The notes under the pieces were generated by a model. It saw nothing but the letters and a program-made list of their open reading frames with translations. It was not told the DNA's origin and did no database searches. Positions 12,181 through 24,108 of a DNA stretch of 64,000 bases are shown here, one piece after another. Numbering within the stretch: position 1 is the first letter of the stretch; each line of letters starts with the position of its first letter. The stretch spans positions 620,001 to 684,000 of the forward strand of contig NZ_OBEA01000001.1 of NCBI RefSeq assembly GCF_900215355.1, in the 5' to 3' direction. A program made the position numbers and the translations under genes. The DNA is from Pseudooceanicola antarcticus (lineage in GTDB: Bacteria > Pseudomonadota > Alphaproteobacteria > Rhodobacterales > Rhodobacteraceae).

Positions 12181-13043
12181 TTCGCCGCGCCTTCGTTGAG
12201 GCCGATGATCCGGGAGCGGATCAGGCCCGAGAGGTAGTCGATGACATAGACCATGGCGATGATCAGGAAGATGATCGACCAGGCCTCGTCCCACTTGTAG
12301 GCGGCGATGCGGTCCGACAGCAGGAAGCCGATGCCGCCCGCGCCGACGATGCCCAGGATGGTGCCGGAACGGACGTTGGATTCGAAATTGTAGAGCAGGA
12401 TCGACCAGATCACCGGCATCACCTGCGGCATCACGGCGAAGCGGATCTGCTGCAACCGCGCCCCGCCCGAGGCCCTGATGCCCTCGACCGGCTTTTCCGA
12501 TGTGTTCTCGATGGCCTCTGAGAAGAGCTTGGCGAAGGTGCCGATCTCGGAAACCGCGATGGCCAGGATACCGGCCAGAGGGCCGAGGCCGAAAGCGCGG
12601 ATGAAGATCAGGGCCAGCACCAGGGTTTCAAACGCGCGGATCACGTCGTAACCGCGCCGCACGCCCATGCGCAGGGGCCAGAAGCGGGTGATGTTCTTGG
12701 CGCCCAGGAACGAGAGCGGGAAGGCGAAGACCGCGCCGATGAGCGTGCCCATGAAGGCCATCGACAGGGTCTCTCCCAGCCCTTCGAGGATGGGCAGGAA
12801 CTCGGCCCAGCTCTTCCAGATGTAGGGCGGCAGCATGAAGCCCAGCACGTCGCCGAAGCGCTGAAGGCCGGTCCAGATGCGGGCGGGCGAGAAGTCGAAG
12901 GCCCAGAGGCAGTAGCAGAAGAGCAGGGTGAAGCCGGCCCAGAGCGCCGCGCGGCGCAGGCGGATGGACAGGGGCGCGCGGAAGGCGGTCGGATAGGCGG
13001 CCTTGGCGGCGGCGATCTGTTCGGGTGTCATGTCGGGGGTCAT
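12177..13043 (-). CDS. phnE: Phosphonate ABC transporter permease, second copy
   Basis: A 288-residue inner-membrane permease with about six helices and the cytoplasmic coupling motif EGIRASGGARLQQIRFAVMP near residue 190. The C-terminal half has the GAGGIGFLL segment typical of PhnE. It overlaps the first phnE copy by 4 bp, and the two probably form a heterodimer served by PhnC and PhnD. Confidence 0.92.
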   Translation of the reverse strand: MTPDMTPEQIAAAKAAYPTAFRAPLSIRLRRAALWAGFTLLFCYCLWAFDFSPARIWTGLQRFGDVLGFMLPPYIWKSWAEFLPILEGLGETLSMAFMGTLIGAVFAFPLSFLGAKNITRFWPLRMGVRRGYDVIRAFETLVLALIFIRAFGLGPLAGILAIAVSEIGTFAKLFSEAIENTSEKPVEGIRASGGARLQQIRFAVMPQVMPVIWSILLYNFESNVRSGTILGIVGAGGIGFLLSDRIAAYKWDEAWSIIFLIIAMVYVIDYLSGLIRSRIIGLNEGAAK

Positions 13044-13987
13044 GCGTCACGCTCTCCCAGGCCGATGATGCGATGGCGGAGTTTTTCCGAGCCGAAGTCG
13101 ATGACGACCACGGTGACAAGGATGATCAGGAAGAGCGCCGAGAGGTCGGTGTATTCCTGGAAGGACATGGCGGTGCGGATCTCCTGCCCCAGGCCGCCTG
13201 CACCGACGTAGCCGATGATCGACGAGGACCGAACGTTGATCTCGAAGCGCAGCAGCGTGTAGCTGATGATGTTCGGCAGCACCTGCGGCACCACGGCGTA
13301 GCGGATCTGGTCGAACCAGGTGCCACCGGCGGCCTTCACGCCCTCGAGCGGGCGCATGTCGATGTTTTCATTCACTTCCGAGTAGAGCTTGCCGAGCGCG
13401 CCGCAGGCATGCAGCCCGACGGCCATGACGCCTGCCATGGGACCGACCGAGAAGCAGAAGACGAAGATCAACGCCCAGACGAGCTCGGGCACCGTGCGGG
13501 CGAACTCGAGGAAGCGGCGGGCGGCCCACAGCACGTAGCGATTGGGCGACAGGTTCCGCGAGGCGGGGAACGAGATCAGGAAGCCGCCGATGACGCCGAA
13601 GACCGTGGCCATGAAGGCGATCAGGATGGTCTCGACCAGCAGCCGCAGCCAGGTCTGCCAGCGCCAGAACCATTCGGCCAGGTCGGCGCCCAGGCTGTCC
13701 CATCGCAGGACGGGGAAGGTCTTGGTGATGAATTCACCGAGGCGCGGCAGGCCCGCGCCGATGATCCAGCGCCATTCCCGCGAGCCGTCGCGCAGGGTGA
13801 CCTGGGTGACCTTGAAGAAGTCTCCAAGCCAGGCGGTCAGCAGGAAGGCGGCGAAGAAGAGAACGGCGCCGATGGCCCAGTTCACCCGCGCGCGGCGGCG
13901 TTTCAGCGCGAAGTCGCGCTCGAAGGCGGCGATGGCGGAGGGCCCCGACAGGGGTGGGGCGGCGGTGAACCCGGCGGTGGCTGTCAT
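13040..13987 (-). CDS. phnE: Phosphonate ABC transporter permease, first copy
   Basis: A 315-residue permease with a longer N-terminal tail than the second copy. It has the coupling motif EGVKAAGGTWFDQIRYAVVP and the GAGGLGQEI segment. The start at 13987 (MTATAGFTAAPP) is chosen because the sequence upstream is the phnD-phnE hairpin spacer. It lies 70 bp after phnD and overlaps the next phnE by 4 bp. Confidence 0.92.
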   Translation of the reverse strand: MTATAGFTAAPPLSGPSAIAAFERDFALKRRRARVNWAIGAVLFFAAFLLTAWLGDFFKVTQVTLRDGSREWRWIIGAGLPRLGEFITKTFPVLRWDSLGADLAEWFWRWQTWLRLLVETILIAFMATVFGVIGGFLISFPASRNLSPNRYVLWAARRFLEFARTVPELVWALIFVFCFSVGPMAGVMAVGLHACGALGKLYSEVNENIDMRPLEGVKAAGGTWFDQIRYAVVPQVLPNIISYTLLRFEINVRSSSIIGYVGAGGLGQEIRTAMSFQEYTDLSALFLIILVTVVVIDFGSEKLRHRIIGLGERDA

Positions 13988-14019
13988 GGAAAGATCCGTC
14001 GAAAGGGGCGGAAAGGAAA

Positions 14020-14045
14020 GGGGCGGGCCCAAATGGACCCGCCCC
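14020..14045 (-). terminator. Hairpin between phnD and phnE
   Basis: An 11-bp GC-rich stem with one mismatch and an AAAT loop sits in the 70-bp phnD-phnE spacer with no T-run. Hairpins at this place in binding-protein operons usually protect the upstream mRNA, allowing more binding protein than permease. It also contains a short weak-termination option. Confidence 0.55.
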
Positions 14046-14057
14046 GATGTCAGGCGA

Positions 14058-14975
14058 TCAGGAGCCGCGACGCTCGCGCTTCAGCCAGTTGCGCATGTCG
14101 ACGATCCACTGGTAGCGGTCGTGATCGACGCGGGTCCAGCCAACCGAGGGGTTGGGGTTCTCGGGATCGAAGGAGGAATAGAGCGCATAGCCCTCGGGAT
14201 CTTCCTCGGGGAAGGAAAGATAGGCCTCGGTGATGTCTTCCACCATCTCGTCGGGCAGGTTGGTGCGGAAGGTGACGGGGCCGGAGGTGATCTCGGGGCT
14301 TTCCCAGATCTTGCAGATGACGCCGGCCTCGATCATGCCCTTGTCTTCCATGCGCTGGTAGATGCCCTGCGTTTCGTTGTTCTCGTAGGTCGAGGCGGTG
14401 TCGAAGGTGCCGTTGACGACACCCTGGACGTCGGCTTCGTGGCTGCCGCCGAAGGGGATGGCCGAGAAGTAGGTGGCCGGGTCGATGCCCAGACGTTCCT
14501 TCATGTTGAAGTAGGGCACGGCGAAGCCCGAGGTGCTGTCGGGATCGGCGAAGGCATGGACCTTGCCCTTGGCGTCTTCCAGGCTCTTGATGCCGCTGTC
14601 GCAACGGGTGACGACGATGGAGCGGTAGCCGGTGTTGCCGTCCTTCTTGATGGTGGTCAGGGTCGGGCGCACGCCGCCCTCGGTCAGGGTGTAGGCCGCG
14701 GCATAGGACGACGAGCCGAAGGAGGCGACCTCGATCTGGTCGGCGGCCATGGCCTGGATCACGCCGTCGTAGTTACCGGCAGTGAACATCTCGACCTCGA
14801 CGCCAAGCGTCTTTTCCAGGTAGGCGCGCAGCGGTTCGTTGCGCATCAGGCGGTCTTTCTCGTTCTCGCCAGAGAGGATGCCGAATTTGACGACCTGGTA
14901 GTCGTCCTTCCAGCCGTCGGCCATGGCGGGGGCGGCGATCAGTGCGACGAGGGCAGCAGTGCTGAGCAGTTTCAT
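14058..14975 (-). CDS. phnD: Phosphonate ABC transporter substrate-binding protein
   Basis: A 305-residue periplasmic binding protein with a signal peptide (probably cut after AMA at residue 19) and typical PhnD segments: KFGILSGEN near residue 30, a YDGVIQAM stretch near residue 69, FGSSSYAAAY near residue 86 and DPDSTSGFAVP near residue 145, which contributes to phosphonate binding in this family. It follows phnC by 32 bp. Confidence 0.93.
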   Translation of the reverse strand: MKLLSTAALVALIAAPAMADGWKDDYQVVKFGILSGENEKDRLMRNEPLRAYLEKTLGVEVEMFTAGNYDGVIQAMAADQIEVASFGSSSYAAAYTLTEGGVRPTLTTIKKDGNTGYRSIVVTRCDSGIKSLEDAKGKVHAFADPDSTSGFAVPYFNMKERLGIDPATYFSAIPFGGSHEADVQGVVNGTFDTASTYENNETQGIYQRMEDKGMIEAGVICKIWESPEITSGPVTFRTNLPDEMVEDITEAYLSFPEEDPEGYALYSSFDPENPNPSVGWTRVDHDRYQWIVDMRNWLKRERRGS

Positions 14976-15007: not shown

Positions 15008-15826
15008 TCAGGCCGGGATCTTGGCGACGTGACCGGTGGAAACGGAGGTGGAGGTGACGGCCTCGTTGAACTCGGCCAGCCCTTCCGAACCGTAGATGTC
15101 GCGGACGACGTCATCGGTGAGTTGGGCGGCGGTGCCGTCGAAGAAGACCCGGCCTTCGCGCATGGCGATGATGCGGTCGCAATAGGCGCGGGCGGTGTCG
15201 AGGGTGTGCAGGTTGACCAGCACGGTCAGGCCGTCCTCGCGGTTGATGCTGCGCAGGGCTTCCATGACGCGGGTGGCATTGCCCGGATCGAGCGAGGCGA
15301 TGGGTTCATCGGCCAGCATGATGCGCGGGTCCTGCACCAGGGCACGGGCGATGGCGACGCGCTGTTGCTGGCCGCCCGAAAGCGTGCCGGCCCGTTGCAG
15401 CGCCTTGGGCGCCATGTCCAGCCGGTCCAGCGCCTGGATGGCTCGGGTGCGCTCGGCATCCGAGAAGCGCAGGGTCATCGAGTTGAGGAACCCGTGGCCC
15501 GCCAGCTGGCCGACCAGCACGTTGGTCAGCACGTCCAGCCGGTCGACCAGGTTGAACTGTTGGAAGATCATCGCGCAGTCGCGGCGCCAGGCGCGCAGCT
15601 CGCGGCCCTTCATGGCGGTGATCTCGCGGTTTCCGAAGGTGATCTGCCCCTCGCTGGGATCGATCAGGCGGTTGATCAGGCGCAGCAGCGTCGACTTGCC
15701 GGCGCCCGAGCGGCCGATGACACCGACGAACTGGCCGGGCTCGACTTGCAGGGTCACATTGTCCACGGCGCGGGTTTCCCCGAAGCGGCGGGTGACGGAA
15801 GAGAGGGTCAGGGTTGCGTTTTCCAT
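15008..15826 (-). CDS. phnC: Phosphonate ABC transporter ATP-binding protein
   Basis: A 272-residue ABC ATPase with Walker [10 protein letters not shown] (near residue 36), Q-loop FQQFNLVDR, signature LSGGQQQR and Walker B IMLADEP. The start at 15826 ([10 protein letters not shown]) opens the first beta strand; earlier in-frame ATGs lie in the promoter. It is the first gene of the phnCDEE-accessory operon. A repressor-like 11-bp element and a possible Pho box lie upstream. Confidence 0.94.
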
Positions 15827-15866
15827 GAGCCGGACCGTCGCCCAGTTCCGTGACGTCCCGGCATCG

Positions 15867-15877
15867 TCCGAATGAAT
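15867..15877 (-). promoter_or_regulatory. 11-bp phn element before phnC (ATTCATTCGGA on the minus strand)
   Basis: The identical 11-mer occurs before phnF (24128) and before the methyltransferase gene (16068). Here it ends 40 bp before the phnC start codon, a usual place for a repressor site. PhnF is the obvious candidate protein. Confidence 0.65.
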
Positions 15878-15893
15878 ATTGCACTGAGGGGAT

Positions 15894-15911
15894 GCTGCAG
15901 TTTTGTGAAAG
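15894..15911 (-). promoter_or_regulatory. Possible Pho box before phnC
   Basis: Read on the minus strand this is CTTTCACAAAACTGCAGC, which resembles the PhoB-binding CTGTCAT-N4-CTGTCAT pattern: the first half is close and the second is weak. It lies 67 bp before phnC, as expected for a phosphate-starvation promoter. Confidence 0.4.
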
Positions 15912-16067
15912 GCGCCCATGTATCTCTCGGGATTCCAGTGACTTGCCGGGGCGCGCCCTGTCGCAGGGCCCGCGCGGGGCGCAGGAATTTGTCCGGATGA
16001 CCCCGAATCCCACCGTCAAGGAGCGGTCATCAAACCGCAGCGGAACCGTTACGCGGGCGGTTTACTG

Positions 16068-16107: not shown

Positions 16108-16890
16108 ATGATGCAGGAACACGCGGAACGCTTTGAAGGCCTGGCCGAGGCCTATGCCCTCTATCGCCCGGATTACCCGGCTCGTGCCTTCCGTGAGCTG
16201 CTGCCGCTCTCGACCTCGGACCGGGCGCTGGCGGTGGACGTGGGGGCCGGCCCCGGCACCTCGACCCGGCCCATGCGCGCGGCCCTGCCCGCAAGCTGGC
16301 TGGTCACGGCAGTGGAACCCGGCCGCGACATGCGCCGGGTGCTGGCGCGCAGCTTCCGCGAGGACCCTCGGGTGCAGGTCACAGATGGCACGGCCGAGGC
16401 GCTGCCGCTGCCCAGGGGGTCCGCCGGGCTGGTGGTCGCCTGTTCCGCCTTCCACTGCTTCGACGCGCAGGGCTTCTTTGCCGAGGCGCGGCGGGTGACG
16501 GCACCGGGCGGCGTACTGGCGCTTCTGCGCAACCGCATGGTGCCGACCCCGCTCAGCGAAGAGATCATGGCCCATGTCACCCGTGCGGCGCGCCAGGCCG
16601 GGGCGCTCTGGGACATCTCGGGCCACCGGGAGCCGACGGTGCGCGAGCTCTCTTCCGTCGAGGGCTTCAAGACCGCCCGGTCGCGCACCTACCGCTGGTC
16701 CGAGACCCGCGACCGGCGCGGGGTGGTGGACTTCTACCTGACGCGCTCTTCGGTCTGGTCGCTGGTGCGCCGGGTCGGGCTGGGGCCGGTGATGCGCGAC
16801 CTGGAAGAAATCTGCGCCCGGCATATCGAAAAGGACACCGCCGCCCCCCTGGAGTGGGAGACGACGGTGAAATGGACTCAGCGGCGCTAG
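16108..16890 (+). CDS. Class I SAM-dependent methyltransferase (phn-associated)
   Basis: A 260-residue methyltransferase with motif I VDVGAGPGTST (residues 44-53), the acidic end of beta-2 in TAVEPG, and the later VACSAFHCFDAQGFFAEARRV stretch common to the UbiE/TAM-like group. The substrate is not evident. An ATG at 16111 is equally possible as the start. It lies between, and opposite to, the two phn operons, converges on the isomerase gene with a 20-bp gap, and has the shared phn element before it, so a role in phosphonate metabolism is likely but unproven. Confidence 0.78.
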   Translation: MMQEHAERFEGLAEAYALYRPDYPARAFRELLPLSTSDRALAVDVGAGPGTSTRPMRAALPASWLVTAVEPGRDMRRVLARSFREDPRVQVTDGTAEALPLPRGSAGLVVACSAFHCFDAQGFFAEARRVTAPGGVLALLRNRMVPTPLSEEIMAHVTRAARQAGALWDISGHREPTVRELSSVEGFKTARSRTYRWSETRDRRGVVDFYLTRSSVWSLVRRVGLGPVMRDLEEICARHIEKDTAAPLEWETTVKWTQRR

Positions 16891-16910: not shown

Positions 16911-17729
16911 CTACTGGCCCAGCCCCTCGCGTTCCAGCCAGTCCATCGAGGGCAGGATACCGGCCTTGTCGCGCAACTCGAGGATCAGGCGGGGCTTGGC
17001 TTCCAGCTCTCCGAGCGCCTTGAAGACCTCGTGCCAGCGGATCGAGCCGTGGCCGATCTGCCAGTGCCGGTCGGCATAGCCGTCAGCGTCCTGCAGGTGG
17101 ACATGGCCCAGCATCTCGCCTGCCGAGCGGACGAAGAAGTCCACCGGCTGCGCGCCGGTCGAGCCATGGGCGTAATGCGCATGCCCGGTGTCGATCGACA
17201 GCTTGATCGCCTCGGAGCCGAAGCTTTCGGCCAGCACCTTGCGCCAGGCGGGGTCGATGTCCTCGATGTTCTCGAGCATCAGCGTGACGCCGGCACTTTC
17301 GGCCCGTTTCACCGCATCGCCCAGGCTTTCGTGGACCCAATCCGTCAGCCGCTCCATGGCGCCGGGATAGGTGGCCAGGTTGTGGTGGTCCCAGGTAGTG
17401 AAGGGCGAATGGATGACCATATGCGTCGCGCCAAGCGCCTCGCAGATCTCCAGCCCCTGCGCCATGCGGCGGGCCACCAGGGCGCGGATCTCGGGGTCGG
17501 GGTTGGCGAAGTTCAGCCCCCAGAAGGGCCCGTGGATGCCGTAGCGCCCGCCGAAACCGTCCAGCTGCGTCTTCGCCTCGTCCACCAGAGCCTGCCAGTC
17601 GCCCGAGACCAGCAGCGCGGGGTTCGAGAAGCTCTGGATTTCCAGATCGCGGTCCTTGTCGAAAAGCCAGTCGCGGTAGCTGGCCAGTTCAGAGACGCCG
17701 AGGGCGGCGCCGATCACGGGAAGGGTCAT
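16911..17729 (-). CDS. Sugar phosphate isomerase/epimerase-like TIM barrel (phn-associated)
   Basis: A 272-residue protein of the xylose isomerase-like/AP endonuclease 2 TIM-barrel superfamily. Likely metal ligands are Glu153 (LENIED), Asp180 and His183 (SIDTGHAHY), His211 (GHVHLQD) and Glu251 (LILEL); His66 and His107 also lie at strand ends. It is the last gene of the phnFGHIJKLM operon, 10 bp after phnM, at the place where phnN or phnP often stand. It might process the ribose phosphate product of the lyase pathway, which is an inference. Confidence 0.8.
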   Translation of the reverse strand: MTLPVIGAALGVSELASYRDWLFDKDRDLEIQSFSNPALLVSGDWQALVDEAKTQLDGFGGRYGIHGPFWGLNFANPDPEIRALVARRMAQGLEICEALGATHMVIHSPFTTWDHHNLATYPGAMERLTDWVHESLGDAVKRAESAGVTLMLENIEDIDPAWRKVLAESFGSEAIKLSIDTGHAHYAHGSTGAQPVDFFVRSAGEMLGHVHLQDADGYADRHWQIGHGSIRWHEVFKALGELEAKPRLILELRDKAGILPSMDWLEREGLGQ

Positions 17730-17739
17730 GGGATATTCC

Positions 17740-18918
17740 TTACTGGGCGGCGACGGCGGTCAGGCGTTGGTTGACGCTGCCGTCCGAGAAGATGAAGGCA
17801 CCGTGGCGCAGGGTGGCGCGGACATGGCCGACGCCCTCGTCGTCGGCGATGACCAGGTCGGCCAGCTTGCCCGGCGCGATCTCTCCGCGATCCTCCAGGT
17901 GCAGCGCGCGGGCTGGGGTCAGGGTCGCCAGACGGGTCGACTCGGCCAGCCCGCCGGGCCGCATCGGCGCAAGGGCAAGGATGGCGGGCAGGATGGCCGA
18001 GGGGTGGTAGTCGGCCGCCAGGATATCCAGCAGGCCGTTGGCGTAGGCCTCGCGGGCGGAAAGGTTGCCCGAGTAGCTCTCGCCGCGCAGCGCATTGGGC
18101 GCGCCCATGGCGGTGAGCAACCCCCGCGCCTTGGCCTCGGCGGCGGCTTCCAGCGTGACCGGGAACTCCGAGATCGTGGCCCCGAGCGCATCCATCAGCG
18201 CGACCTTCTCGACCGTGTCGTCGTCATGAGAGGCGACGGCGATGCCATGCGCCGCACAGGTCTTCGAGATCGCCTCGAGCGTCGCACCCACGTCGCCCTG
18301 GGCTTCCAGCCGCAAGTCGATGCGGCGCTGGATGTTCTCGTCCGCCTCTTCGGGTGTGGCCCCGGCGCGGATCGCATTGGCGCGGATCTTCTCGAGATTC
18401 CGGTACTGCCCCTGCCCCGGCGTGTGATCCATCAGGGACACGAGGTCTGCGGTGCCATTGGCGATCAGCTCTTCGATCACCTCCAGCGCGTCGGGGAAGT
18501 TGACCTCGAAGCGGGTGTGGACGCGGTGGTCGACCTTCAGCGCGCCGCGCATGGTCTTCAGCGCCCGCAGCATCTGCGAGGAATGCGCATGGCTGCGCAT
18601 GTGCCCATGCACCGACTTAGGCGTGAACGAGACTGCGGCATAGCCCGTGGTTATCCCGGCGACCTTCAGGCGGCGGTCCAGGTCGCGCAGGCCCAGCTCG
18701 AGCGGCATGGTCACATTGGGGCGCGGCTCGATCTCGCGCTCGATCATGTCGCCATGCATGTCGATGAAGCCGGGCATCAGCAGCAACCCGCGCCCGTCGA
18801 TCTCGGCATGGGGGACGGGGGTGTCGCGCACCTCGGCGATCTTGCCGTCTTCGACACGGACAGAGCCCTGGGGCAGCACGGTGTCGGACAGGACGACGCG
18901 GAAGTCAGAGAGCCACAT
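17740..18918 (-). CDS. phnM: PhnM, ribose-1-alkylphosphonate 5-triphosphate diphosphatase
   Basis: A 392-residue amidohydrolase-fold protein. In the C-P lyase pathway PhnM removes pyrophosphate from the 5-triphosphate. The HxD metal pair is His55/Asp57 (FIDMHGDMIE). Further typical segments are SLMDHTPGQGQY, AVASHDDDT, AMGAPNALRGESYSGN and AADYHPSAIL. E. coli has HTDN at the first motif where this protein has HGDM, so it is a diverged member. It overlaps phnL by 14 bp. Confidence 0.9.
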   Translation of the reverse strand: MWLSDFRVVLSDTVLPQGSVRVEDGKIAEVRDTPVPHAEIDGRGLLLMPGFIDMHGDMIEREIEPRPNVTMPLELGLRDLDRRLKVAGITTGYAAVSFTPKSVHGHMRSHAHSSQMLRALKTMRGALKVDHRVHTRFEVNFPDALEVIEELIANGTADLVSLMDHTPGQGQYRNLEKIRANAIRAGATPEEADENIQRRIDLRLEAQGDVGATLEAISKTCAAHGIAVASHDDDTVEKVALMDALGATISEFPVTLEAAAEAKARGLLTAMGAPNALRGESYSGNLSAREAYANGLLDILAADYHPSAILPAILALAPMRPGGLAESTRLATLTPARALHLEDRGEIAPGKLADLVIADDEGVGHVRATLRHGAFIFSDGSVNQRLTAVAAQ

Positions 18919-19621
18919 CGGCAGTCTCCTCGATAGGGGTCTTGGGTTTCAGGGGGATCTCGCGGTCGATCAGCGCCGCCACGTCGCCCGGATGGTGGAA
19001 GACGCCGATCATGGCGACGCCCTGCGCTTTCAGCTCGGCCAGGCGGGCGACCAGCGCCGCGCGGGCGCCCTTGTCGAGAGAGGCCGTCGGTTCGTCCAGC
19101 AGCAGCATCCGCTGCGGCAGGATCAGCGCGCGGGCCAAGTTCACCTTCTGCTGCTCACCGCCCGAGAAGGTCGTCGGGTAGGCGCGCCAGAGGTCGGGTT
19201 TCACGCCGAAGGCCGCCAGCCAGTGCCGCGCCTGCTCCAGCGCCTCGTCCCTGCCGTATCCCGCAAGGCGCATCGGCTCGGCGACGATATCCTCGGCCGC
19301 GACACGGGGGCGGGCGTTGAGGAACTGGGTGACGAAGCCGATCTCGGTCCGGCGCAGGTGCGCCACGTCGATATCGGCGGCATTGGCCATGTCGATCACC
19401 CCCTCGCGGGAATGGAACCAAAGGTGCCCGGCGACGGGCAGGTAGCTGCGGTAGAGGGTGCGAAGAAGGGTGGACTTGCCGACGCCGTTCGGTCCCGACA
19501 GCAGCAGGAATTCGCCCGCGTGCAGGGTGAAGGAGAGGTCCTCGAAGGCCGGAAGGGACTGGCCCAGGTGGTGCATCTCGAAGGTCTTGGTCAGACCTTG
19601 AACATCCAGGATCGTTGTCAT
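18905..19621 (-). CDS. phnL: PhnL, C-P lyase ABC-type ATPase
   Basis: A 238-residue ATPase with Walker A LSGPNGVGKST (near residue 40), signature FSGGEQQKVNLARAL and Walker B MLLLDEP. It has no membrane partner; in E. coli PhnL joins PhnK on the C-P lyase core complex. It starts 8 bp after phnK. Confidence 0.92.
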   Translation of the reverse strand: MTTILDVQGLTKTFEMHHLGQSLPAFEDLSFTLHAGEFLLLSGPNGVGKSTLLRTLYRSYLPVAGHLWFHSREGVIDMANAADIDVAHLRRTEIGFVTQFLNARPRVAAEDIVAEPMRLAGYGRDEALEQARHWLAAFGVKPDLWRAYPTTFSGGEQQKVNLARALILPQRMLLLDEPTASLDKGARAALVARLAELKAQGVAMIGVFHHPGDVAALIDREIPLKPKTPIEETADVAL

Positions 19622-19629
19622 GAGGTGCC

Positions 19630-20430
19630 TCAGAGTTTCGCGTGGACAAGTTGCTGGGTGTAGGCGTGCTGCGGGTCCTGGAAGACCTGGTCGGCAAGCC
19701 CTTCCTCAACCACCCGGCCATGGCGCATCACCATCACCCGGTCGGCCATGGTGCGGATCACGCCCAGATCGTGGCTGACCAGTACCATGGTGATGCGACG
19801 TTCCTGTTGCAGCCGCTTCAGCGTATCCAGCACCAGCGCCTGAACGGAGACATCCAGCCCCGTGGTCGGTTCGTCCAGCAGCAGAACGGCGGGTTCCAGC
19901 GCGATGGCCTTGGCCAGCTGCACCCGCTGCTGCATCCCGCCCGACAGTTCGATCGGCGGGGCATCCATGCGGGGGATCGGGAATTCGGAGGCCTCAAGCG
20001 CCACCTGCGCCTTCTCGCGCAGCACGGCGAAACGGCGTTCGCCCGCGACCAGCAGCCGCTCGGCGACGTTGCCGGAGGACGAATGCTTCATCAGCAGCCC
20101 AAGGTGCGGGTTCTGGTAGACGATGCCAATACGGCGGGCGCGCAGCATCCGCCGTTCGAAACGGTCGAGCGTAAACAGGTCCTCGGGCAGCTCGGGCAGG
20201 TCCAGCCGGTAGCGGCCAGCGTCCGGGCTTTCCTCGAGGTTCATCATGCGCAGCAGCGTCGACTTACCGGAGCCGGATTCCCCCACGATGCCAAGCACTT
20301 CGCCCGGGTAGACGCGGGCGGAAACGTCATCCAGCGCGCGGACGTTGCCATAGGTCTTCGACAGGCCCGACAGCTCCATCAGCGGCTGGGTGCGGACGAG
20401 GCGCGGGGCCTCTTTCATCAGGGCGCTCAT
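19630..20430 (-). CDS. phnK: PhnK, C-P lyase ABC-type ATPase
   Basis: A 266-residue ATPase with Walker A GESGSGKST (near residue 51), signature LSGGMQQRVQLAKAI and Walker B VLLLDEP. PhnK docks on PhnJ in the E. coli core complex, so its presence next to a divergent phnJ matters. It overlaps phnJ by 4 bp. Confidence 0.92.
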   Translation of the reverse strand: MSALMKEAPRLVRTQPLMELSGLSKTYGNVRALDDVSARVYPGEVLGIVGESGSGKSTLLRMMNLEESPDAGRYRLDLPELPEDLFTLDRFERRMLRARRIGIVYQNPHLGLLMKHSSSGNVAERLLVAGERRFAVLREKAQVALEASEFPIPRMDAPPIELSGGMQQRVQLAKAIALEPAVLLLDEPTTGLDVSVQALVLDTLKRLQQERRITMVLVSHDLGVIRTMADRVMVMRHGRVVEEGLADQVFQDPQHAYTQQLVHAKL

Positions 20431-21338
20431 GCCAGCTCTCCGTTTCTGTACCAGGTCTGTCCGACGGTCGGTGTGCCGCCGTCGCGGGCGTCGATGGCCT
20501 TGATGCCGAAGTGGCTGTCCGAGACCTCATAGCCCGCAGAGCCGTCCTCTTGCGGGATCTCGTTCATGAAGTAGCCGGTGACGCCGGAGCGGGCGCAGGT
20601 CAGATGGGCGTGGTCCTCGACCTTGTAAGGCACGTCGTCGAAGACCAGCGGCTCGACCCGCGTGTAGGGCGGCACGGCGAAGATGCGCTTTTCGCGGCCG
20701 GCCGACAGGATCGTCAGGTGTTCGGCCATGTGCAGCTTCTTCACGTCCCAGCGGGGGATCGGGGAGGGGGTCATCACGTGGCGACCATTCACCATCGCCG
20801 GGTAGGAGGCCCCCAGCATCACCCGGCCCGAGCGGACCATCTGCTCGTAAAGCTGCAGCCACATCCGCCCGTAGTCGGCATCCGCATGCATCTGGCGGGC
20901 GGTGGACATGTTGGGCTCGACCCCGCGCAGGGGTTCGGGGTTGGGGACCTGCAGGATCAGGATCTGGTCGCGGCTCAGTTTCTCTTCCGGGATGCGGTGG
21001 CGCGACTGGATCAGCGTGGCGTCCAGCGTGTCCCAGGTTTCCGAGGCACCCGAGACGCGCGACAGGAAGCGGCGGATCGAGGCGGCGTTGACGCTGTCAT
21101 CAGCGCCCTGGTCGATCACCTTCACGGTGGAGGACGGCTTGACCAGCGTCAGGGTCACCTGAAGCCCGCCGGTGCCCCAGCCCCGTGCAATCGGCACCTC
21201 GCGCGAGGCATAGGGCATCTGGCAGCCGGGCACCGAGACGGCCTTGATCATCTTGCGGCGCAGCTCGCGCTTGGCGGAAGGATCGAGGAAGCCATAGGAA
21301 AACGCCTTCCAGCGGCCTGTGAGATCTGAAAGGCTCAT
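20427..21338 (-). CDS. phnJ: PhnJ-like C-P lyase subunit lacking the four-cysteine site
   Basis: A 303-residue PhnJ homologue. Family stretches are clear: RGWGTGGLQVT, KVIDQGADDS, QSRHRIPE, PNPEPLRGVEP, TPSPIPRWD and AGREKRIFAVPPYTRVE. Gly38 in VPGCQ matches the radical glycine (Gly32) of E. coli PhnJ. The canonical metal/radical cysteines do not survive: by alignment from memory, Cys248 matches Cys241, but Ser251, Val272 and Gly278 replace Cys244, Cys266 and Cys272. Only two cysteines (39 and 248) exist in the whole protein, too few to hold a [4Fe-4S] cluster alone. The frame is intact and overlaps phnI and phnK by 4 bp each, so this is not a pseudogene. It either uses different chemistry or is structural. 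Confidence 0.88.
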   Translation of the reverse strand: MSLSDLTGRWKAFSYGFLDPSAKRELRRKMIKAVSVPGCQMPYASREVPIARGWGTGGLQVTLTLVKPSSTVKVIDQGADDSVNAASIRRFLSRVSGASETWDTLDATLIQSRHRIPEEKLSRDQILILQVPNPEPLRGVEPNMSTARQMHADADYGRMWLQLYEQMVRSGRVMLGASYPAMVNGRHVMTPSPIPRWDVKKLHMAEHLTILSAGREKRIFAVPPYTRVEPLVFDDVPYKVEDHAHLTCARSGVTGYFMNEIPQEDGSAGYEVSDSHFGIKAIDARDGGTPTVGQTWYRNGELA

Positions 21339-22411
21339 GCGGTTTCCTCTTTCTTGTCAGTGGGTTGCGCCTGTTCCGCCTTGGCGGTCTTCGCCGCGCG
21401 CAGGTTGTCCAGCGAGGACTGGAAGGTGACGTAGTGGGGCAGCTTGAAGTGAATGCAGAAGCCCGAGCTTTCGACGGGCTCGGTATGGTAGAGGAAGAAT
21501 TCCTCTTCGACGGGCGAGTTCTTCTCGGCCCCCGGCGCGTTCAGGTCCAGCGTGGCGGCAGAGATGCATTTGACCTCGTTCCAGCCCAGCGTGGCGGTGA
21601 AGCCGAGGCGCAGTTCCCCCTTGCCCTTGGTGGTCACCACCTCGGCCTGGGATGTCTTGACCCGACCTGCCGAGAAGCGCCGCCCGTCTGGGTGGGCGAC
21701 CATGACCTCGACCTCCGAAAGGCGCAGCTCGTTCACTGTCGGGTGGCTGTTGCCGTAGCCGCGCATGGCCGAGTAGCCGAGCGCCAGCGTGCCGCCAGTA
21801 TCGGCTCGGGCCAGGCTTTGCAGCGTATGGGCGCGCTTGGCGGGGAAGAGCAGCGGCTCGCGGGTCAGGTCGGGGATCTCGTCGCGCGGCACCGGGGCGG
21901 CCTCGGGCGTGGTCACCAGACCCTGCGCGCGCTGCCATTCGGCCAGCGAGGGATGCGTGGCGGGGGCGGGTTTCGCAGCGGGCTCGACTGCGGGCGGGGC
22001 ATAGGGCTGGTCCTCAAGCACCTCGGTCGCCAGCAGGCGGTGCGCGTAGTCCAGCGTCGGTCCCAGGATCTGGCCGCCGGGGATGTCCTTGAAGGCGGCA
22101 GAGATGCGGCGATGGGTGAAACCGGCGTCCGGGGCGACCACCTCGGCGATCTGCAACCGGGGCTGGGTGGTGCGCCAGGCGCGCAGCAGCAGCAGCGCCT
22201 CGTAGAGGTCCCCGCCCGATTGGGCCAGGGCCAGCGCCGCAAGGTCGGGGGCGTAGAGAGAGGCCTCGCCCATCACCCGGTCGACAAGGGCCGGCAGGGC
22301 CTTTTCGATCTCGGCCACGCGGGCGGCGTCGATCTGGCCCATCTGGGCACGGTAGAGCCTTTCGCTCTGTTCGATGGCGCGTTCGCCACCGCGGGTTGCC
22401 ACATATGCCAT
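21335..22411 (-). CDS. phnI: PhnI, C-P lyase core subunit
   Basis: A 358-residue protein with the PhnI landmarks RRISAAFKDIPGGQILGPTLDY (from residue 101), RGYGNSHP near residue 219 and HFKLPHYVTFQ near residue 326. The last motif keeps the two histidines that, in the E. coli core complex, line the PhnI-PhnJ active-site area. PhnI with G, H and L attaches the phosphonate to ribose of ATP. It begins 3 bp after phnH. Confidence 0.92.
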   Translation of the reverse strand: MAYVATRGGERAIEQSERLYRAQMGQIDAARVAEIEKALPALVDRVMGEASLYAPDLAALALAQSGGDLYEALLLLRAWRTTQPRLQIAEVVAPDAGFTHRRISAAFKDIPGGQILGPTLDYAHRLLATEVLEDQPYAPPAVEPAAKPAPATHPSLAEWQRAQGLVTTPEAAPVPRDEIPDLTREPLLFPAKRAHTLQSLARADTGGTLALGYSAMRGYGNSHPTVNELRLSEVEVMVAHPDGRRFSAGRVKTSQAEVVTTKGKGELRLGFTATLGWNEVKCISAATLDLNAPGAEKNSPVEEEFFLYHTEPVESSGFCIHFKLPHYVTFQSSLDNLRAAKTAKAEQAQPTDKKEETA

Positions 22412-22414
22412 GTC

Positions 22415-22957
22415 TCAGACCTCCGTCACTTGGGAAGAGCGGGGCAGGGCCAGCAGGCGGGCCCCGTCGTGGATCAGCACCTCGAGGCCGCGCGGGTAGG
22501 CGCAGAGCCGGGCGCGCAGGTCCCAGAAGACGGGGTGGATGCCATCAAGGCAGATGCGCTCGACCGACTTGATGCCGGGGCCGGTGAGTTGCAGCGCCTG
22601 GCCTGCGCCGATCCTTGCCGGCACGATCAGGGTCGCGCCCTCGTCGGGGTAGAGGTGAGAGCCGGTGTCGAGCCCGGCGATCACCTCCAGCGCCTCGGCG
22701 CTGTCGGCGGCCATGAAGACGTGATCGGCCTCATGCGCGGGCACCAGGGCCGCGCCGGTGGCGGGGATCCGGGCCAAGAGCGTCTCGTCCTGGCTATGCA
22801 CCTTGCATTCGCGGTCCAGCAGCGCCAGCGCGATGCAGAGGGGGCCGGGGTCTGGCAGGTCGCGGACAGTGCCGGGGCGCGAGAGGGCGCCAAGGACGGC
22901 CTCGAATGTCGCGTTGTCGCGGATTTCCTCGGCGTCGGGCAGGGGGGTGGCAAGCAT
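22415..22957 (-). CDS. phnH: PhnH, C-P lyase core subunit
   Basis: A 180-residue protein with PhnH features: an early TFEAVLGALSRPG segment, a central GSHLYPDEGATLI stretch, LTGPGI and the final RLLALPRSSQV. It is a little shorter than E. coli PhnH (194). The start overlaps the phnG stop by one base. Confidence 0.9.
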   Translation of the reverse strand: MLATPLPDAEEIRDNATFEAVLGALSRPGTVRDLPDPGPLCIALALLDRECKVHSQDETLLARIPATGAALVPAHEADHVFMAADSAEALEVIAGLDTGSHLYPDEGATLIVPARIGAGQALQLTGPGIKSVERICLDGIHPVFWDLRARLCAYPRGLEVLIHDGARLLALPRSSQVTEV

Positions 22958-23394
22958 CAGAAGGTCTCCATGTCGACGCGGGTGGCTTCGATCCGGCGCA
23001 GGGTTTCGGTGTCCGCGGCCTGCTGCGCCTGGGCCTCTGCCTCGATGAAGGCGCGGATGCGGTCGGCGGCGGTGCCGTCGCTGAGCGCGGCATCCAGCAG
23101 GGCCATGGCCATGGCGCGTTCGATGTCGCGGCCCGTGACCATGCCGTAGCCCTCGGTGCCCGAGGGCAGGCGGACATGGGCTTCGGCCACCAGCACTTCG
23201 CCGAGGTGGAACTCCACCCCCTGCACCGTGTCGCGCATGGGCAGCATCACGAGGCCGGTGCCGCTTTTCAGCACCTGCATGTCCCCGAGCCGGGGCAGGA
23301 TCTCTTCGGCCAGGTGCTTGAGGCGCGCGGCATCGGCGCGGGCCAGGGTGGTCAGGTCGTCAGAGGGCATCTCGCCCCCGTGTCTGTCGAACAT
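22957..23394 (-). CDS. phnG: PhnG, C-P lyase core subunit
   Basis: A 145-residue protein matching PhnG in length and in the GYGMVTGRDIERAMAMALLDA and EATRVDMETF segments (E. coli has VQGRD and ASRVDFFTM at these places). It starts 3 bp after phnF and is coupled to phnH. Confidence 0.88.
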   Translation of the reverse strand: MFDRHGGEMPSDDLTTLARADAARLKHLAEEILPRLGDMQVLKSGTGLVMLPMRDTVQGVEFHLGEVLVAEAHVRLPSGTEGYGMVTGRDIERAMAMALLDAALSDGTAADRIRAFIEAEAQAQQAADTETLRRIEATRVDMETF

Positions 23395-23397
23395 GGC

Positions 23398-24108
23398 TTA
23401 TTCCGGGAAATCGAGGGTGAAACGGATGCGGCCCGCGGCGTAGATCGCCTCGGACCAGCCGATGGGTTGACCCGAGAGGTCTTCGTCGGTCTTGCACATG
23501 ACGATGACGGGCTGGTCGGCGGGCTGCTCCAGCAGCTTGGCTTCCCATTTCTCGGGCAGGCGGGCGTAGATGGTGGTGGTGCGGCGGCGGTAGTCCGTCA
23601 CGCCGTAGCTGGCGTAGATGTCGGTGACCGACATGCGGCTGCGGCGCTTCACGCCGAGGTCGGGGAAACGCTCGGCGGGGTGGAAGCTGCGGTTCAGGCC
23701 AAGCGGATGGTCATCGGCGCGCGAGCGGCCGAGGATGCGGTGCACCGGCGTGCCGGGCGGCAGCGAGAGCTCTTGCGCCACGTCGGGTTCGGCGGGGGTG
23801 ATATCGGCGGTGATCGTCTCTCCGCCCGGCTTCACGCCCTGGCTTTCCAGGTTCTCGCGGAAGCGGGTGCGGCGGCCGATGCGGTAGTTGATCCGGGGCT
23901 GGCCACGCACGAAGGTGCCCCGCCCCTGTTCGACCGAAAGCACCCCCTCGGCGGCCAGAGAGGCCACGGCGCGGCGCAGCGAGTGCCGCCCGACGCCGAT
24001 CTGCCGCGAGAGCTCCTGCTCGGTCGGCAGCTTGTCGCCCTGGGCCAGATCGCGCGTGGCGATACTGTCCATGATCCAGTCGCGGGCGATCTGCCAGTTG
24101 CCGCTCAT
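23398..24108 (-). CDS. phnF: PhnF, GntR/HutC-family regulator of the phn genes
   Basis: A 236-residue regulator with an N-terminal winged helix (KLPTEQELSRQIGVGRHSLRR, residues 26-46) and a UTRA/HutC ligand domain with the TTTIYARLPEKWEA and WSEAIYAAGRIRFTLD segments. It is the first gene of the phnFGHIJKLM operon and, by analogy with other PhnF proteins, represses it until a ligand binds. The 11-bp element 19 bp before its start, repeated before phnC and the methyltransferase gene, is its most likely operator. Confidence 0.9.
   Translation of the reverse strand: MSGNWQIARDWIMDSIATRDLAQGDKLPTEQELSRQIGVGRHSLRRAVASLAAEGVLSVEQGRGTFVRGQPRINYRIGRRTRFRENLESQGVKPGGETITADITPAEPDVAQELSLPPGTPVHRILGRSRADDHPLGLNRSFHPAERFPDLGVKRRSRMSVTDIYASYGVTDYRRRTTTIYARLPEKWEAKLLEQPADQPVIVMCKTDEDLSGQPIGWSEAIYAAGRIRFTLDFPE

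Follow-up and report, generated by a model that had tools for sequence, protein, structure and literature searches.

A lineage of complete C-P lyase-type operons with a cysteine-poor PhnJ and a retained PhnI-PhnJ metal site

How might a C-P lyase work when its PhnJ lacks most of the cysteines by which that protein is recognised? The question is raised by an operon in a 64,000-nucleotide stretch of Pseudooceanicola antarcticus DNA (contig NZ_OBEA01000001.1, positions 620,001 to 684,000), referred to here as the window. Bond cleavage by C-P lyase is itself unsettled: in the available text of PMC9947105 the proposed cluster/thiyl cysteine site of the E. coli enzyme lies about 30 Å from Gly32, and a metal site is found at another interface. 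The four cysteines are treated as a mark of PhnJ in the accessible parts of PMC11978286 and PMC12413358. Below, PhnJ proteins with all four are called four-Cys and those with one or none Cys-less.

The operon of the window, phnF-G-H-I-J-K-L-M, is intact and is followed by a gene for a TIM-barrel protein, a methyltransferase-like gene on the opposite strand and phnC-D-E. Profile searches found PhnG, H, I, J, K, L and M all present, with PhnK and PhnL below the equivalog cut-offs. The genes are as follows.

23398..24108, minus strand: phnF, GntR-type regulator (TIGR02325, 184.6 bits, cut-off 156.8)
22957..23394, minus strand: phnG (TIGR03293, 106.4 bits, cut-off 89)
22415..22957, minus strand: phnH (TIGR03292, 104.7 bits, cut-off 91.5)
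21335..22411, minus strand: phnI (PF05861, E 2.7e-107)
20427..21338, minus strand: phnJ, Cys-less type, 303 aa, without an internal stop
19630..20430, minus strand: phnK, ABC ATPase (best NCBIfam match TIGR02323, 223 bits, below the cut-off of 302.85)
18905..19621, minus strand: phnL, ABC ATPase (best NCBIfam match TIGR02324, 238 bits, below the cut-off of 256.3)
17740..18918, minus strand: phnM, ribose-phosphonate triphosphate diphosphatase (NF011988, 511.5 bits, cut-off 369)
16911..17729, minus strand: AP_endonuc_2 TIM-barrel protein, directly after phnM (PF01261, E 2.6e-31)
16108-16890, plus strand: SAM-dependent methyltransferase-like gene, between the TIM-barrel gene and phnC
15008..15919, minus strand: phnC, transporter ATPase (open reading frame as listed)
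14058..14975, minus strand: phnD, phosphonate-binding protein, head-group motif DPDSTSG (PF12974, E 4.5e-52)
13040..14032, minus strand: phnE, permease (PF00528, E 1.7e-16)

The TIM-barrel protein matched a CbiR-type phosphodiesterase model weakly (50.7 bits, below the cut-off of 105) and may do the work of the phosphodiesterase PhnP without having been recognised as such. Its neighbour, the methyltransferase-like gene, has a copy (49% identical) in just one other (L012) of the 34 listed Cys-less loci. AP_endonuc_2 TIM barrels also follow phnM in four-Cys haloarchaeal operons (L150, L151), where the annotation is 'sugar phosphate isomerase/epimerase'; another is located near the phn genes of the Thermus plasmid pVV8 (L145:20598-21362).

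The window PhnJ belongs to PF06007 (Pfam search, E 1.8e-116, 388.4 bits against a cut-off of 25), matches E. coli PhnJ chains in the PDB (E 4e-82) and has the C-terminal domain of the PhnJ fold. An earlier note on this DNA had reported that three of the four cysteines are gone, and alignment with E. coli and re-reading of the codons bore this out: the canonical Cys241/244/266/272 pattern is replaced by Cys248/Ser251/Val272/Gly278. The note's coordinates were exact and the frame is intact, with the minus strand the one detail missing from it. As it had also stated, both neighbours overlap phnJ (phnI, 21335-22411, and phnK, 19630-20430, by 4 bases each), and the glycine of VPGCQ and other landmarks are kept; the alignment shows Gly38, Arg113 and His114 in place. 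The codons concerned are listed here.

21225..21227, minus strand: Gly38 (E. coli Gly32, proposed glycyl radical), kept in 41/41 Cys-less and 71/71 four-Cys rows
20997..21002, minus strand: Arg113-His114 (E. coli Arg107-His108), both kept in 41/41 Cys-less rows
20595..20597, minus strand: Cys248, TGC (E. coli Cys241), sole survivor of the four cysteines
20586..20588, minus strand: Ser251, TCC (E. coli Cys244), Ser in 24/41 and Thr in 17/41 Cys-less rows
20523..20525, minus strand: Val272, GTC (E. coli Cys266), from alignment, codon re-read
20505..20507, minus strand: Gly278, GGC (E. coli Cys272, proposed thiyl radical site), from alignment, codon re-read

The Cys241 equivalent is kept in 39 of 41 Cys-less rows, and in 42 of 44 once Thermus and Mesorhizobium are included. 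Only one further cysteine is present in the window PhnJ, Cys39 in VPGCQ, and four cysteines elsewhere in the protein are thereby ruled out. A sequence error in the window phnJ is ruled out as well, since 40 other distinct sequences have the same state. The same cysteine state was read in 15/15 further Rhodobacteraceae copies and in five plasmid-borne copies.

The earlier note had asked if a Cys-less clade exists. GTDB genomes searched with the window PhnJ as query yielded at least 80 loci, and the listed loci together with genome searches supplied 112 distinct PhnJ; the four-Cys comparison set was picked by similarity to the window PhnJ and from Chloroflexota, and is not a census. Among the matches listed, 41 have none or one of the four cysteines (two have none), 71 have all four, and 0 have two or three. 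In a tree of the 112, built without the cysteine domain, the 41 occupy one side of a single branch with SH-aLRT support of 100%, a single state change, so the clade does exist and the pattern is not one of chance. FastTree trees of PhnI, PhnK and PhnH contain one label change each and that of PhnL two. The gene is also under selection, as had been claimed: dN/dS, in the nine of ten close pairs with dS above 0, was 0.02-0.19 for phnJ as a whole and 0.06-0.30 for the C-terminal portion, far below 1.

The lineage is found in Alphaproteobacteria, Chloroflexota and a few other MAGs, and record titles of the listed Cys-less loci name Rhodobacterales, Devosia, Rhizobiales, Anaerolineae, one 'Bacteroidetes bacterium' and one 'bacterium'. 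The 295 Rhodobacteraceae genomes include 147 with PhnJ and 16 with the Cys-less type; all 16 were read, and the 15 besides the window each have one cysteine in the tail. Two haloarchaeal PhnJ were read and have all four cysteines. Annotated plasmids of Thermus thermophilus, Nitratireductor, Mesorhizobium and Haematobacter also carry Cys-less phn genes (16 plasmid records reached at least 60% identity, and five of them were read for cysteines). On the Haematobacter plasmid pOT1-5 (L147) and a Mesorhizobium AR07 plasmid (L149) these operons adjoin IS66 or IS6 transposases and integrases, a location that suggests lateral spread. The window system is thus a member of a distinct, complete and selected C-P lyase-type lineage (phnGHIJKLM, usually with phnCDE and phnF). 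We found no description of a Cys-less PhnJ lineage in the open-access literature; subscription journals lay outside the search, and novelty is provisional.

Some of these operons have additional genes. A GNAT acetyltransferase follows a hexapeptide transferase in four roseobacter-type Cys-less operons (L007:11786-12346, L010, L011 and L013). A second phn-like module, without GHIJKL of its own, lies beside some others (L003:14564-15757, L012:11776-16892, L017:13643-18944) and contains a PhnM paralogue, a TIM barrel or methyltransferase, and PhnC/D/E-like transporter parts.

Could cysteines elsewhere in the complex hold a cluster? No Cys column common to all Cys-less rows was found in PhnG (31 rows), PhnH (41), PhnI (43), PhnJ (44), PhnK (43), PhnL (43) or PhnM (29), the best being 41/43 in PhnI and 42/44 in PhnJ. 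PhnGHIJ together contain one cysteine in T. thermophilus HB8 and two in strain SNM1-1, compared with at least seven in each of 38 four-Cys systems, and both Thermus PhnI have no cysteine at all. Since PhnG to PhnM share no cysteine and HB8 PhnGHIJ has just one, the lineage cannot have a cysteine-held [4Fe-4S] cluster as its common mechanism; judging from these sequences, such a cluster in the core is impossible in HB8 and is not common to the lineage. The radical-SAM motif CX3CX2C was present in none of the chosen unlabelled ORFs of at least 100 aa in 29 Cys-less neighbourhoods and the canonical operon L083.

Kept throughout the lineage are the metal-site histidines of PhnI, residues Arg107 and His108 of PhnJ (E. 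coli numbering), the ABC ATPases and PhnM. The PhnI codons in question are these.

21743..21745, minus strand: His223 (E. coli His219), metal site, in 41/41 Cys-less rows
21455..21457, minus strand: Cys319 (E. coli Val326), two residues before the first metal-ligand His, from alignment
21434..21451, minus strand: His321 and His326 (E. coli His328 and His333), metal ligands, in 41/41 Cys-less rows

According to the available text of PMC9947105, the metal ion between PhnI and PhnJ of E. coli is bound by two PhnI histidines that are essential for growth on phosphonate; the site holds a product-like ligand, PRcP, modelled as the cyclic phosphate product, and PhnJ His108 contacts the cyclic phosphate. 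The lack of a shared cysteine, taken with the invariant PhnI histidines, points away from a relocated cluster and towards this interface. Positions invariant in four-Cys systems are largely retained in the Cys-less lineage (57/70 in PhnJ, 57/66 in PhnI, 47/50 in PhnK and 41/44 in PhnM). Because nine such positions in PhnI, including some near the protein end and 251-252, and 13 in PhnJ are changed, the reaction may differ from the canonical one.

We propose, with about even confidence, a cluster-independent C-P lyase-type system that would work at the PhnI-PhnJ metal site, its substrate and chemistry being predictions. PhnGHI(L) would attach the ribose of ATP to a phosphorus compound and PhnM would trim the coupled product, after which the R group would be released at the metal site without a protein-bound Fe-S cluster, forming a ribosyl phosphate, probably the 1,2-cyclic phosphate. 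The C-terminal domain that once held four cysteines would be kept as a fold only. Either C-P cleavage at the metal site would proceed without a cluster, or the system would take substrates with an R group that leaves by non-radical chemistry. Only tentatively do we suggest the former, that the lineage cleaves C-P bonds at the PhnI-PhnJ histidine site with neither an iron-sulfur cluster nor a cysteine radical; this would extend to E. coli, whose four-cysteine PhnJ site may serve structure or activation and not be where the C-P bond is cleaved. A point against our preferred explanation is that cleaving plain alkylphosphonates is difficult unless radicals are used. The earlier note had named three options, namely another route of cleavage, another substrate, or a structural role for PhnJ. 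Its premises stand, and the third option fits badly (see below), while the first two are inseparable by sequence.

A different substrate on the same scaffold is, in our view, about as likely as cluster-free C-P cleavage, and equally tentative. It would be an organophosphorus compound with an R group able to leave in a non-radical step; phosphonates whose carbanion is stabilised and compounds with a P-O or P-N linkage are examples. In an RNase-type transesterification, the 2'-OH of the ribose would attack phosphorus at the metal site, and the radical cysteines, now useless, would have been lost. This would account for the loss of all shared cysteines around an intact metal site, His108 and Arg107, and for the altered PhnI positions near the protein end and at 251-252. 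It is also consistent with genome content: a four-Cys PhnJ is also present in 15/16 Rhodobacteraceae carriers of the Cys-less type and in 131/279 other genomes (Fisher p 1.7e-4, kinship not corrected), as if the Cys-less system added a capability. However, the transporter belongs to the phosphonate type and its PhnD retains the head-binding motif DPxSTSG, two Anaerolineae-type loci pair Cys-less genes with phosphonate enzymes, and an ATP-costly route seems wasteful for phosphate esters, which are easily hydrolysed. PhnD does not settle the substrate, because the amine-binding Glu/Asp of E. coli PhnD that it lacks are equally absent from four compared four-Cys relatives.

Pathway genes give clues both for and against the canonical pathway. 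In its favour, besides the phosphonate-type transporter, PhnX and a TIGR03364 oxidoreductase (oxidase) lie alongside the Cys-less genes of L025 and L026. In L021 and Mesorhizobium AR07, phnM-DUF1045-phnN stand in line downstream of the Cys-less genes, the DUF1045 protein of L021 scoring just under the TIGR03223 cut-off and over the Pfam one. PhnN exceeded its cut-off in 9/9 alphaproteobacterial carriers examined, including all four without a four-Cys PhnJ, and in 0/15 non-alphaproteobacterial carriers; PhnP did so in 0/24 carriers. PhnN lies within 9 kb of the Cys-less phnJ in three of four carriers that have no four-Cys PhnJ (three alphaproteobacterial genomes and G074). Among the listed loci, PhnN is found beside 4/34 Cys-less versus 23/46 four-Cys loci and PhnP beside 0/34 versus 13/46; since both occur less often near Cys-less genes, an identical end product is not established lineage-wide. 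For other neighbours the corresponding counts are 16/34 versus 14/46 (a phosphonate-associated hexapeptide transferase, which speaks for the canonical pathway) and 13/34 versus 28/46 (phosphodiesterase-type proteins of several folds).

It is unlikely that a catalytic or metal-binding cysteine has moved from PhnJ to PhnI Cys319, with radical or metal chemistry retained. The residue is attractive for such a role, since it is present in 41/41 Cys-less versus 1/70 four-Cys rows, two residues before a metal-ligand histidine. However, both Thermus copies have alanine there in a cysteine-free PhnI, two four-Cys systems share Cys319 (L082 and the second copy in L035), and the predicted PhnI model has pLDDT below 50 at 321-329, too low for geometry.

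Finally, is the Cys-less system a companion of a canonical one? Whether its genomes also carry a canonical phnJ was another question of the earlier note, and the answer differs between groups. In Alphaproteobacteria they usually do, as in the 15/16 Rhodobacteraceae above, whose four-Cys copies were all read; in the window's own genome a separate contig carries a further PhnJ, of the four-Cys type. Across the 29 genomes behind the listed Cys-less loci, a further PhnJ match was found in 20/23 alphaproteobacterial genomes (counting G299, where it is two fragments) and 0/6 others, these second copies being classed by identity (45-55%) and that of L035 by reading. Among the 3/23 alphaproteobacterial carriers without one is a genome recorded as Haematobacter massiliensis strain CCUG 47968. 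Of 400 Chloroflexota genomes, 37 have PhnJ and 12 the Cys-less type, with a second PhnJ in 0/12, although MAG incompleteness, for which Chloroflexota had no figures, could hide one. Chloroflexota PhnJ matches at or below 56% identity were all four-Cys in the 18/26 read. The genome G074, 99% complete, has a Cys-less PhnJ only. The absence of a second PhnJ from 12/12 Chloroflexota carriers indicates that the Cys-less system can stand alone: in Alphaproteobacteria it is often accompanied by a canonical one, without depending on it. A PhnJ that is merely a structural or dependent partner of the canonical protein, as the earlier note had considered, fits badly with these carriers and with G074.

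By analogy with the zinc-free paralogues of ribosomal proteins, the Cys-less genes might be a metal-sparing or auxiliary copy that stands in for the four-Cys system when iron or zinc is scarce or acts as its scaffold. We consider this very unlikely. The enrichment of four-Cys PhnJ among Rhodobacteraceae carriers (same test, kinship not corrected) would suit it, as would the two PhnJ copies lying 18-20 kb apart on one contig in three Rhodobacteraceae genomes and in tandem in L035, but a second PhnJ is missing from the Chloroflexota carriers, G074 and three alphaproteobacterial genomes, and the Cys-less operon carries a separate GHIKLM and, usually, a separate transporter. The tandem locus (Rhodobacteraceae UBA6796, L035:2-12764) consists of Cys-less GHIJKL, phnF and phnC/D/E-like genes, and four-Cys GHIJ, and the additional cysteine characteristic of Cys-less systems is present in the PhnI of its four-Cys copy. 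A decaying pseudo-system heading for loss, which the absence of three supposedly essential cysteines might suggest, is scarcely credible and largely refuted by the dN/dS values, with frames intact, one state across phyla and the operon retained.

PMC9381506, in its accessible portion, kept or removed sequences by catalytic residues, and because it sorted them in this way, Cys-less PhnJ may have been discarded by its filter. The lineage is a natural mutant that separates the models of C-P cleavage: every shared cysteine is gone, and the metal site, Gly32, both ABC ATPases and PhnM persist. Its carriage by T. thermophilus HB8 offers a stable, nearly cysteine-free complex that could be purified in air; Ohtani et al. 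2012, cited in PMC5529391, may report on whether HB8 grows on phosphonates. phnJ is in use as a marker of methane-yielding methylphosphonate use. If the chemistry of the lineage differs, phnJ counts based on homology only may be wrong in Rhodobacteraceae, Devosia and Chloroflexota.

Compared with the E. coli K-12 C-P lyase (PhnGHIJKLM; PDB 4xb6, 7z15-7z19), the lineage lacks Cys244, 266 and 272 of PhnJ, with all four gone in two members; its J, I, K and H fall on a separate branch, and none of its 24 genomes searched has PhnP over the cut-off. The four-Cys C-P lyase of the window's own genome (G000 contig C7, L001/L083) shares the host and has phnF, phnM and PhnN beside it; it differs in its PhnJ, which has all four cysteines and is just 45% identical to the window PhnJ. 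A further counterpart is on the T. thermophilus HB8 plasmid pVV8 (NC_017767), which like the window has a Cys-less PhnJ (62.6% identical) in a complete phnCDEGHIJKLM set; unlike the window, it has a LacI-type regulator in place of PhnF, alanine in place of PhnI Cys319, and a single cysteine in GHIJ.
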